From: Chaetoceros tenuissimus
Taxonomy: Eukaryota > Bacillariophyta > Thalassiosirophyceae > Chaetocerotales > Chaetocerotaceae
Assembly: GCA_021927905.1 (NCBI GenBank)
Contig: BLLK01000047.1
Span: forward strand, 744,001-808,000
Length of the DNA: 64,000 nt
Reading direction: 5' to 3'
Shown: in pieces, positions 42,255 to 47,467 of the stretch
Numbering within the stretch: the first letter of the stretch is position 1
Layout of the letters: every line of letters starts with the position of its first letter
The notes under the pieces: generated by a model
Seen by the model: only the letters and a program-made list of their open reading frames with translations
The model's database searches: none
What the model was told of the DNA's origin: nothing
Program-made: the position numbers and the translations under genes

Positions 42255-43442
42255 AAAATGATCTAGGTATTATTGTTGTTCTTTATGTATAGTACAAGTA
42301 GATGTGTATTTGCATGAGTGATGTATGTGAAAAAAATGGGTGGGTGTCAAAGCTAGTGTTTTTTGCGCGAGGATGATGAAACGCGACTATCGCGCTTTGA
42401 AGCGTGAAAACGCGACTGTCGCGCTTTTTTGGGGAATGGGATATCTAAGGCCTTGTGCAAGTCAATAGCAACTCGTTTGTACCAAAACCTGCACACGCTT
42501 CTTTGATGAGCTTTGCAATTGTTTGAAAGGGTTTCAATTTGATGCCAAGAGTGAACAGTGCAGCTTTCTCACTGTCACCCCCAAACTCTTTCTCTACAGC
42601 CTTGAATAGGGTATAACCATACTTGTCTGCGTACTGGAAGCTAACGTTCTTGAGATGCTTTGGAGGAGATAAAACAATTATCTTGGCTAGCTTGGAGGTG
42701 TCCTTTCCAAATCTACCTTGACCGGCTTCATAAATAGTCTTAGCATCTTCAATTGCCTTCTCTTCGGTATGAAATCCAGGATCATACTCTTCTTCAGCTG
42801 CCTGCAAGGATGAAACCAAAACTTTCTCAAGAGTACCTCCAACTTCAGCTGACGCAACAGATACGAGATCTTTAGTGTAATTCTTATAGTACGTCTTCTT
42901 TAGAATTTCCATATCTTTGTTGCTGCGTCCGCAAAGTACACTGTAGAGCAAGGTCTCGTTGGTTCCAATTCCTGCACAAGCCTTCTTAATCATTTTGCAC
43001 TCTGCACTGACAGGTCAAATACAAGATACTGCAAAGCTTGTCCAAAATCTGATCCTCCACATTCTTTCTTCATGAGATCCTTGAGGCTGTCACCTTCGTA
43101 TAGCTGGCTAAGTTTCACAGGAACTTACATTCTCTCCTCTGCAGTAGTTTTGCCCGGAAGCTCAATCAATGCCTTTTGTATCCATTGGGATTTGGGATGA
43201 GCGAACCTGCGTCAGTTCAGAATATATTGGTACTGAAAGCTTTGAAGTATGCGAGGTCACACAATTTTCCAATGAAGTTTGTTACAAAATGCTATGTAGT
43301 CTCTAGTTTAGAAGTTGGAAGCAGTGATTTCTGCCGCTTTGCTTTGCACAGTTATTAGTATTTGAAGAATGAAGATGACTTGAAATTGGCTGCATCGTTG
43401 CATAAAATGTATGTTGTGTTGCAGGGGAAAAAAGGAAGTAGT

Positions 43443-43579
43443 GCGAAAGGGGGGAGGAAAGGTAACACCGACCTGCGAAAGGGGGGAGGAAAGGTAACAC
43501 CGACCTGCGAAAGGGGGGAGGAAAGGTAACACCGACCTGCGAAAGGGGGGAGGAAAGGTAACACCGACCTGCGAAAGGT
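43443..43579. repeat. 32-bp minisatellite, four copies plus a partial
   Basis: Four identical 32-bp units (start 43443, 43475, 43507, 43539) and a 9-bp partial. Each contains six consecutive G, GG and AAAGG tracts and ends ACACCGACCT. The units are perfect, which indicates recent expansion. No unique spacers, so it is not a CRISPR array. Confidence 0.95.
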
Positions 43580-44721
43580 TGTGATAGAGATATACACTGG
43601 ACACGTTTGCTACGAAGATTTTCTTTGATATGGCTCGCATAGACCATTGCTGAACATACCCGCGGTAAACTATATGATACCCATTGAAAGCAAGAATGTT
43701 CACGTAAATTCTCCATCTTATGTGTCAAGTCTTCTTCTGAGGATATCTAATAAAGCATCAGAATCCAACTTCATAGATTCGATATTTTTCATCCCTTTGA
43801 TATGTTGAGCGAAAAGCTTTTGCCATTTTACATTATCAAGAAATTATGAAGCTAGATTAGGCATATTATCTAGCGGAGTATCAACGTTGTCTGTGGAATC
43901 TTCGTCTCTTGAACATTCATTGTCTTGAGGTTACTGTCTCCACATTTGGGGTAAAGAGAATTGGATGGCATCGCTCGCTCCGTGAATAGGGCTTCGCCTG
44001 GGCCCTTCGTGGCCAGTCTACCTTGGGACAGGTGTCACTTCTGAACTTGAAAGGATTCGAGGATGAGAAGTGTTCCGATCTATGATTTGGACAGAAAGTC
44101 GCCATTCATGAACAAGGTAGAAGAGTATCACGAAAAATACGCCAACCAGAAATGACGTACATGATAAATATAATTTATAGATAATTTCCATTGATTTATA
44201 TCTTGACTCGACTCGACTTATCGAGATATAAGAAAATACAATAATGCAAGGAATGGACGAATGTTCAACAGTGTGCAAGTGATACTGTGTTACATGAGGG
44301 ATTCCTTCATAACTTTCATCTGGGCAAAAAGTGACCAAAAATATCAGAAAAGTGGCAAAACAGGCCTCAGGAGGTAGTTAGAAATAAAGATTATGTTTAA
44401 ATTTCCATTACTAAGTAGGTGACATATTTATAACTGTAGTCGTACATAATTATAAGCATAGTTCAATTAACTCTAATGGGCAACTTTTTCACTTTTGGTG
44501 CATGTACCCGAGATACATAAAGCTGAAATCAGTCTTTTGAAATCAGATATCCATGTGATCTCGGTCCTTGTGCCAATGACAAAAGAAGGAATCATGCGAG
44601 AATCAAACCCATTGAAAACTTTGCAAAAAAAGTACTGCAAATGTTGTACTGATACCATGCCCGGATCTTCTCTCTTTGTAACAAAAATGAAAGAGACAAT
44701 AAAAAGATGATGTGAAAGGTC
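43580..44721. other. Intergenic region
   Basis: No gene recognised. Short frames occur on both strands, none with recognised motifs. A G/C-richer patch at about 43970-44040 is noticeable but unexplained. Confidence 0.4.
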
Positions 44722-45494: not shown

Positions 45495-47467
45495 TTAATA
45501 AACCTCTACATGCCATTGCTTGCTCTTCTTCAATCCCTTCAACCACTCATCATAGTCAAGACCCTTTGACTCCGCTACTCCCTTCAACATATCCTGAATA
45601 CCAGGCATCATTCCCTTCAATCCGCAAAAGTAAATATGCGCTCCATTGTCAAGCTTGGTAAAAATCTCATCCGCATACTCCTCCACCTTGTCTTGAATAT
45701 ACATCTTTCCTCCCTTCTTGTTCTCCTGCTCACGTGACAATGCATAGTCCAAACGGAAGTTATCTGGATAGTTCTTCTTCACCTCTTGCCACTCATCATC
45801 ATACAACAATGCATCACTGTTCGCTACTCCAAGGAACAACCATGCTGTTCCCTCATATGCCTCTCCTGCTGGAGTCTTCTCAGTAAACAAACGACGAATG
45901 AAACCACGATATGGTGCAATTCCTGTTCCTGTAGCTACCATGATCAAATCAGTCTTTGGATCTTCCTCTGGCATCAACATCACCTTCCCTGCTGGTCCAG
46001 TCATCTGCACCTCATCTCCAGCCTTAGTATCACACAAAAAGTTAGAACATACCCCCTTCTTCGCTGGATCCTCTGCCTTCATCTCCGGACACCAGTAAGT
46101 CGCACGACGTACACACAATGATCCAGTCTTACCACTCATATCATCTCCATAACGTGATGATGCAATTGAATACAAACGTACTGAATGTGGCTTTCCATCC
46201 TTCTCACGTACACCTGGTGGAATCACTCCCCATGATTGTCCCTCCCAGTATGGGAAATCTCCCTCATGATCAATCACAATGTGGCAAGTCTCACCAGTTG
46301 CCTTTGGTCCTACGATACGTTTGGTAGAAACAACCTTACCAGTGAAAGGAGCCTTGTTTTTGTACACATTGACAGGAACGTTGGACTGATCCCAATATGG
46401 ATCAGCTTCAAGGAAGTCCTGCTTCGACTCTTCTGTTTCCTTCTCTCCACTCAAAAACTCCTTTCCAGTGATTGCTGCCAAGATAGCAAGTGCTGTGAGT
46501 CCTCCCTTCTTTCCAGCAAGAGTAATTGCTGACATGATAAGTCCCGCAGAAACTACTCCGGTGAAGATGGAAGAAATAGCAACAGCAGTAGGCATACCAA
46601 GAAGGAATGCTCCCATAGCTCCAGTCCATGCCCCAGTTCCAGGAAGGGGAATTCCAACAAATGCAGCAAGGGAAGCCCATTGCTTTTCAAGAGAACCAAC
46701 TCCCAATGCAGAAGACTTCTTCTCTGCACGATCCAAAATTGGCTTCATCATTTTTTTCAATGAATCATTCTTTAGCAAAAACAAGAGAGGAATAATAGGA
46801 ATCATATTTCCGATAACACATGCTGGTAAAACTTGAGTGATTGGAAGTCCCATCCATAGTCCAACTGGTACAGCTCCACGCAATTCAATAACTGGCATAG
46901 CAGAAATAACAGCCAAAATTGCCAAATCTGGAAGACCAAATCCACGGAAATAGTTTGCAACCTTTTGTCCAACATGAAGATGTTCTACAGTTTCAGCAGC
47001 TGCTGCAGCTTTCTTCGCTGCAAGTGCTGGTGGTGCAGCCGCAGATGTTGCAAGTGCGATGAACGAAAGAGTTGCTGCAGTTTTGCATAAGAATTTTAGT
47101 GCTTGCTTTTTCTTGGAAAGAGTTGGCTTTACTGCTTTCTTATTGTGGTTGAATGAAAACATTTTCATGTTGAGTTCGGTACTCGTAGACTTTGCATATT
47201 GTCCAGTGAGTGGTGAGCTGGCAGATCTATATATTTAGTAATATAGAAACGTGAATATGAGTTAGAAAATTTCCTTCAAATAGTCAAAGAATGTAAATAG
47301 AAAAGTCTTTCTACTTTCTACTTCATAAAAAATGAGACAAAAACAAATACATTTGAGAACACGTACCTCACAATTGATGGAGCAACTCTTGGAGAGCTGA
47401 ACGCATTCGCGCTACCCGTGAGACTAGTGACTGCTACGAGAGCAAGAGTTGAAGTAAAGAACTTCAT
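45495..47467 (-). CDS. Plastid ferredoxin-NADP+ reductase fused to a small-multidrug-export (COG2426-like) membrane domain
   Basis: Exons 47467-47367 and 47226-45495 (140-nt intron) give 610 aa. Exon 1 supplies the signal peptide and plastid motif (SANAFSSPR). A second hydrophobic segment ([17 protein letters not shown]) could be a thylakoid signal or anchor. Residues about 125-280 match the small multidrug export family: [48 protein letters not shown]. Residues about 320-610 are a full [16 protein letters not shown] (FAD), [39 protein letters not shown] (NADP) and the terminal aromatic WHVEVY. The reductase should pass electrons from ferredoxin to NADP+; the fused domain would tether it to a plastid membrane. 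One continuous exon carries both domains. Confidence 0.92.

Follow-up and report, generated by a model that had tools for sequence, protein, structure and literature searches.

A ferredoxin-NADP+ reductase fused to a PF06695 membrane domain in diatoms, and its probable tethering in the plastid

A ferredoxin-NADP+ reductase (FNR) and a small-multidrug-export-type membrane domain appear in one gene of the diatom Chaetoceros tenuissimus, and the question raised by this locus is whether both parts truly belong to a single protein and, if so, where such a protein would sit and work. The gene was analysed within a 64,000-nucleotide stretch of DNA (hereafter, the window), and all its features given below lie on the minus strand. 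The first-pass annotation had proposed that a single exon encodes both domains, which was borne out with the right coordinates: exon 2 (45495..47226) contains a single open frame for the remainder of the presequence, the membrane domain and the FNR, ending at a stop codon at 45495-45497. A 557-aa ORF without internal stop (45495-47168) contains both the PF06695 Sm_multidrug_ex match (46536..46886; ORF residues 95-211, E 4.8e-30) and the PF00175 match (ORF residues 410-525, E 1.7e-26), and at the junction of the two domains the frame is continuous, without intron. Exon 1 (47367..47467), coding for a signal peptide with an ANAF motif and for the start of a transit peptide, is separated from exon 2 by a 140-bp GT-AG intron (47227..47366). 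Many GT-AG candidates exist for this join and the choice was set by the deposited NCBI protein (P0001), which exon 1 matches and with which the splice agrees; spliced together, the two exons give this 610-aa protein of C. tenuissimus. The ANAF motif after the signal is what we take to be the diatom type of plastid presequence, in line with the presequence proposed earlier. The second hydrophobic segment of that proposal was also found, as a signal-like stretch (47019..47117) of thylakoid type with an AxA end (PPALA), where it is presumably cleaved. Elsewhere in the window, minus-strand ORFs at 43303-43716 repeat a stretch beginning FPPPFRRSVLPFLPPFAGRCYLSSPLSQVGV, a short repeat.

The FNR half extends from KQDFLEA to HVEVY (45498..46424) and is 63-64% identical to maize root FNR, with which it could be aligned (463.7 bits) over residues 14-308, up to its C-terminal end. 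This alignment comprised RLYS (46167..46178) and GTGIAP (45912..45929), both checked for position and presumed to be the FAD motif and the NADP-binding motif, respectively, as well as the C-terminal Tyr (45498..45500), whose role is likewise taken from general knowledge. Within the 50 displayed rows, Foldseek identities were 63-64% to root-type FNR and 43-50% to the remaining FNRs, and the FAD_binding_6 match to the ORF reached 15.7 bits, under its cut-off. Judged by these features, the domain qualifies as a full-length, two-domain plant-type ferredoxin-NADP+ reductase with RLYS, GTGxAP and a C-terminal Tyr, and the previous description of a complete FNR with intact FAD and NADP motifs can be maintained. 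Databases already name these proteins FNR.

The COG2426-like nature of the built-in membrane domain was equally confirmed by a PF06695 score of 105.1 bits against a gathering cut-off of 30.7. "Sm_multidrug_ex" is an annotation name, and export of drugs or of another substrate by this domain is putative. Modelled alone with AlphaFold2 (mean pLDDT 89.4, pTM 0.82) and within the full-length protein, the domain (46452..46973) is predicted to fold as two successive series, each made of a short helix, a split, re-entrant-like helix pair and a long helix, followed by a last hydrophobic helix; the helices of the model of the domain alone cover residues 16-25, 31-40, 45-55, 60-82, 85-90, 92-104, 110-122, 129-139, 144-168 and 170-189. 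Comparison of the membrane domain with solved structures gave no clear match. PMC7818093 reports, on the basis of HHpred, homology of PF06695 to the DedA/VTT proteins (PF09335: TMEM41B, YqjA), with a repeat composed of amphipathic, re-entrant and transmembrane elements, and the helix order of our model resembles the repeat order given there. Profile comparison of the membrane domain with the six VTT proteins of the genome (six-sequence profile) yielded no match (1.4 and 1.6%). Two of the genome's DedA/VTT genes, at C58:765,472 and 771,481, are nearly identical and lie about 6 kb apart, one open frame ending earlier.

A six-frame search of the genome (41.0 Mb, 68 contigs) returned the fused gene as the single PF06695 match. 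Conservation of the domain was evaluated at 64 positions conserved among 16 stramenopile proteins from outside the diatoms: the mean fraction kept was 0.912 in 91 fused rows versus 0.899 in 26 rows from the separate proteins of Thalassiosirales, and ELRG, FVG and an 11-residue motif were present in all 91 fused rows. Since motifs conserved in the family are kept, the domain probably still works rather than having decayed to a bare anchor, and the PF06695 part would thus retain an activity of its own. The best 80 of at least 562 prokaryotic relatives were 31-44% identical to the membrane domain, with titles including Firmicutes, WOR-3 and Treponema. Cyanobacteria were absent from the record titles of these best 80, although Synechococcus elongatus, from the control set, has a PF06695 match. 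None of the 3149 ORFs of at least 80 aa at the 80 prokaryotic PF06695 loci matched FNR.

The extent of the fusion among relatives was assessed with the full-length protein (7997 candidates scored). Both PF06695 and PF00175 were detected in 119 of 120 homologues, these being the best 120 of 2020 at E<=0.001; the exception, P0119, matched PF06695 only, its sequence departing from FNR part-way through the FNR part. Direct comparison with each of the two parts was positive for all 120 of these best-listed homologues. Ten of them (P0010, P0015, P0018, P0057, P0058, P0059, P0072, P0074, P0075 and P0104) are fused proteins with transcriptome names (mmetsp/CAMPEP). They bear, for other diatoms, on the possibility raised earlier that transcripts end between the domains, and they speak for uninterrupted transcripts in those species. 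As 119 of the 120 best-listed homologues have both domains, transcriptome entries included, the fusion is no artefact: it is real, and the pairing goes far beyond chance. Named fused entries were from Leptocylindrus, Corethron, Dactyliosolen, Ditylum, Chaetoceros, Seminavis, Nitzschia, Pseudo-nitzschia, Epithemia and Fistulifera, and therefore span Corethrophyceae, Leptocylindrophyceae, Coscinodiscophyceae, Chaetoceros, Ditylum and raphid pennates, that is, from early-branching centric to raphid diatoms. Most of the diatom groups covered have the fused form. The spacing between the PGTGAWTGA motif and the start of FNR was mostly narrow: of 118 fused rows, 99 have 69-75 residues there, 18 have 78-123 and one has 65.

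A broader set of 349 proteins was composed of the best 120 of 2020, 120 of 4034 and 120 of 7433 matches, the last selected for lengths near that of the soluble copy, so that the following class counts do not represent frequencies: 135 fused proteins (in 100 of which both domains are nearly complete), 114 with the membrane domain only (many of these rows being metagenome pieces, possibly cut), 85 FNRs with a single helix, 13 FNRs without that helix, four of which were reassigned by eye to the single-helix class, and two others. P0209 and P0226, in which the membrane domain is joined to the beginning of FNR, are long-branched and sit close to the base of the diatom group; if they come from sister algae, the fusion may predate diatoms.

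The search of relatives thus found both domains in one protein, and the possibility that all close homologues are split does not apply, though Thalassiosirales have the membrane domain alone. In this order (Detonula, Skeletonema, Thalassiosira, Cyclotella, Conticribra and Cyclostephanos), it is a separate protein of about 300 aa, which mostly stops shortly past the last helix, two Cyclotella models having odd ends, and Thalassiosira rotula carries a single-helix FNR (P0345). Standalone membrane domains also occur in brown algae, Tribonema and Fibrocapsa, the latter presumably a raphidophyte. In a 163-row tree, all fused and all diatom standalone rows grouped apart from brown algae, Fibrocapsa and Tribonema (99/90). 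Thalassiosirales fell among fused rows in a 68-row membrane-domain tree (87/84); AU tests did not reject a placement outside for them (p 0.42), as well as for the Nitzschia sp. Nitz4 protein (p 0.49) and for Chaetoceros-like standalone rows (p 0.57, the constrained tree being slightly better). Fission in Thalassiosirales is nevertheless favoured, for the sole reason that Leptocylindrus, Corethron and Dactyliosolen carry the fusion, given the branching order of diatoms. Nitzschia sp. Nitz4, stated to be apochlorotic in PMC11960938, is represented by one gene model, a membrane-only protein of 338 aa (P0196) with the motifs kept. It differs at five of the 64 positions conserved outside diatoms, all five also missing in most fused proteins.

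The same genome harbors further FNR genes. Three of them lie just beyond the window end (C34:809,880-817,425), some 18 kb from the fused gene; they share the same strand and an almost identical FNR part but differ outside FNR, where the enzyme is preceded by a second signal and a single hydrophobic helix. An ASAF-type presequence was seen in two of the three (P0247 and P0250). In another copy (C34:3,845,281), the presequence leads directly to FNR, giving a soluble form, and a diverged FNR at C19:225,459 (L013 3988-5367; 52% identity) has an N-terminal stretch unlike either anchor. Seven weaker matches were 25-30% identical. From the single-helix sisters and the soluble copy, anchoring appears to be the shared feature, with the PF06695 domain as an unusual addition; diatoms seem to put membrane anchors into FNR by two designs. 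In profile comparison, fused and single-helix FNRs matched in their second signals (hhalign, 96.9%, E 1.6e-10), whereas those of standalone non-diatom proteins hardly matched the fused or the single-helix profile (7 and 28%), this control, with its 13-row outgroup profile, being weaker than the test. A motif of our own choosing, present in 65 of 85 proteins, served to cut out the single-helix segments, and Ala and Lys are abundant in the segments compared; homology of the second signals of both FNR types is accordingly likely, not certain.

Over a 924-bp FNR core, the fused gene and its three neighbours differ by 19-22 bases and by 0, 0 or 1 amino acids. Fourfold sites are changed at 13-14 of 129 positions versus the neighbours and at 63 of 119 versus the soluble copy, and to either side of this core identity falls to background (0.26-0.37, ungapped). 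As the fusion is common to diatoms, this near-identity is most simply read as homogenisation between neighbours, and the fused FNR looks to have undergone gene conversion with them. A 153-bp FNR piece beside one gene of the array (C34:813,861-814,013; 51 codons of the FNR 3' end, 98% identical) suggests past recombination there. Concerted evolution was clear in C. tenuissimus and hinted in Seminavis (95.1% within the species versus about 88-92% across), whereas Nitzschia inconspicua gave no sign of it (87.7%), so that two of the three species compared display it. Fused and single-helix proteins were mixed in a quickly built 180-row FNR tree, with 37 label changes for the fused group against a shuffled mean of 56.3, five of them forced by starred branches.

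The data on architecture and targeting can be combined into a working model. The ANAF presequence would bring the nucleus-encoded protein into the plastid and the second signal would direct the N-terminus toward the thylakoid lumen. The membrane domain would then insert so that its middle loop, which is strongly positive, faces the stroma, and the last hydrophobic helix would return the C-terminus to the stroma. FNR, held on a flexible stretch of about 20 residues, would there use ferredoxin electrons near photosystem I for NADPH production; the sister FNRs would adopt the same arrangement with one helix, and the PF06695 part probably keeps a function of its own too, like its separate relatives. 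In agreement with this, the mean net charge of the loop between the two transmembrane helices is +4.6 over 92 fused rows, against +3.9 for standalone rows, the same 92 rows have a hydrophobic last helix (mean 1.59), and FNR is preceded by an acidic linker, SGEKETEES (46425..46451), followed by the flexible FNR N-terminus, as indicated by low pLDDT at 192-198 in the full-length model and by the spacing in relatives. Provided that the signal leads to the lumen, that the positive loop is stromal and that the last helix crosses, FNR is expected in the stroma. Against a stromal FNR, the segment between the last two helices is positive (mean +1.5), a poor fit to a turn in the lumen. In the full-length model (mean pLDDT 78.9), these two helices form one 46-residue helix which, without re-crossing, would leave FNR on the N-terminus side of the membrane. 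It also counts against the model that, among proteins with an xAF motif, the second segment exceeded our own hydropathy cut-off in 32 of 54 fused proteins versus 52 of 56 standalone ones, and the inner envelope may be an alternative location to the thylakoid. Attachment of FNR to a plastid membrane, as opposed to a free-floating state, is very probable. With somewhat less assurance, we consider it probable that this plastid-targeted FNR is held permanently at the thylakoid by the intact, fused PF06695 domain, in the topology proposed.

Other readings of the fusion deserve attention. The membrane domain could be a mere tether, serving as the single helix does in the sister FNRs, and the existence of such simple-helix forms in this genome and in other diatoms speaks for it; yet the residues conserved in the family are as well kept in fused proteins as in the separate ones of Thalassiosirales, and the fused gene holds the sole PF06695 copy found in the genome, which makes a pure anchor rather unlikely. 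Slightly less unlikely, though still doubtful, is the opposite extreme, a redox-coupled device whose membrane part moves a lipid or an ion while FNR senses or drives it, transport being tied to the NADPH/ferredoxin state. The equal upkeep of the membrane motifs in fused and separate forms, the mostly narrow junction spacing and the wide occurrence of the fusion among diatoms are all consistent with such coupling, as is the reported DedA/VTT homology, re-entrant loops being read as a transporter sign in PMC7818093. At its most explicit, and with the same low probability, this reading supposes a re-entrant-loop lipid scramblase or ion exchanger wired to FNR, with traffic following the ferredoxin/NADPH state, from which loss of photosynthesis removed the FNR half only. 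However, the parts are separate in Thalassiosirales and the Nitz4 model holds the membrane half alone, and coupling can therefore not be obligatory. An annotation or assembly artefact, or cleavage of the fused frame product into two working proteins, would accommodate the standalone forms of relatives, but it conflicts with the continuous frame without junction intron and with the ten fused proteins bearing transcriptome names in other species, and is very improbable.

Permanent tethering at the thylakoid, the reading we prefer, invites comparison with known systems. In plants, TROL and Tic62 recruit FNR at the thylakoid, and FNR location affects electron partitioning and is tied to cyclic electron flow, according to PMC7984839, which also calls the role and location of FNR a longstanding controversy. 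The proposed diatom arrangement is alike in that FNR would be held at the thylakoid, but the plant anchor is a separate FNR-binding partner with a weaker hold in the light, whereas in the diatom gene the anchor belongs to the same chain and is covalent. For Chlamydomonas, no orthologues of these tethers are known according to PMC5683061. Among diatoms, it is reported that copper limitation raises ferredoxin and FNR in one strain of Thalassiosira oceanica (PMC5570362) and that in T. pseudonana a density beside photosystem I was assigned to ferredoxin and FNR (PMC8331139). By genus, both species should have the split form, neither being present by name among the listed proteins. Cyanobacterial PetH is also an FNR with a fused N-terminal targeting domain, which is CpcD-like. 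CpcD is a soluble phycobilisome linker domain and not a membrane domain, and NCBIfam PetH models matched our FNR part below their cut-offs (375 bits versus 600 for the equivalog NF045929, and 366 versus 635). The standalone PF06695/COG2426 proteins of brown algae, Thalassiosirales and bacteria have the same domain and motifs as the fused protein. No description of the fusion was found in the titles and abstract beginnings of the open-access papers listed, and closed or unlisted papers or supplements could hold one.

Diatoms thus offer FNRs with covalent anchors in two designs, together with a soluble form. Thalassiosirales constitute a natural control in which the parts are split, and the colourless Nitzschia may serve as a control for FNR loss. 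With these anchor designs, the soluble form and the natural controls, it becomes testable how FNR location affects electron partitioning, and for the plastid PF06695 proteins the fusion provides a functional lead.
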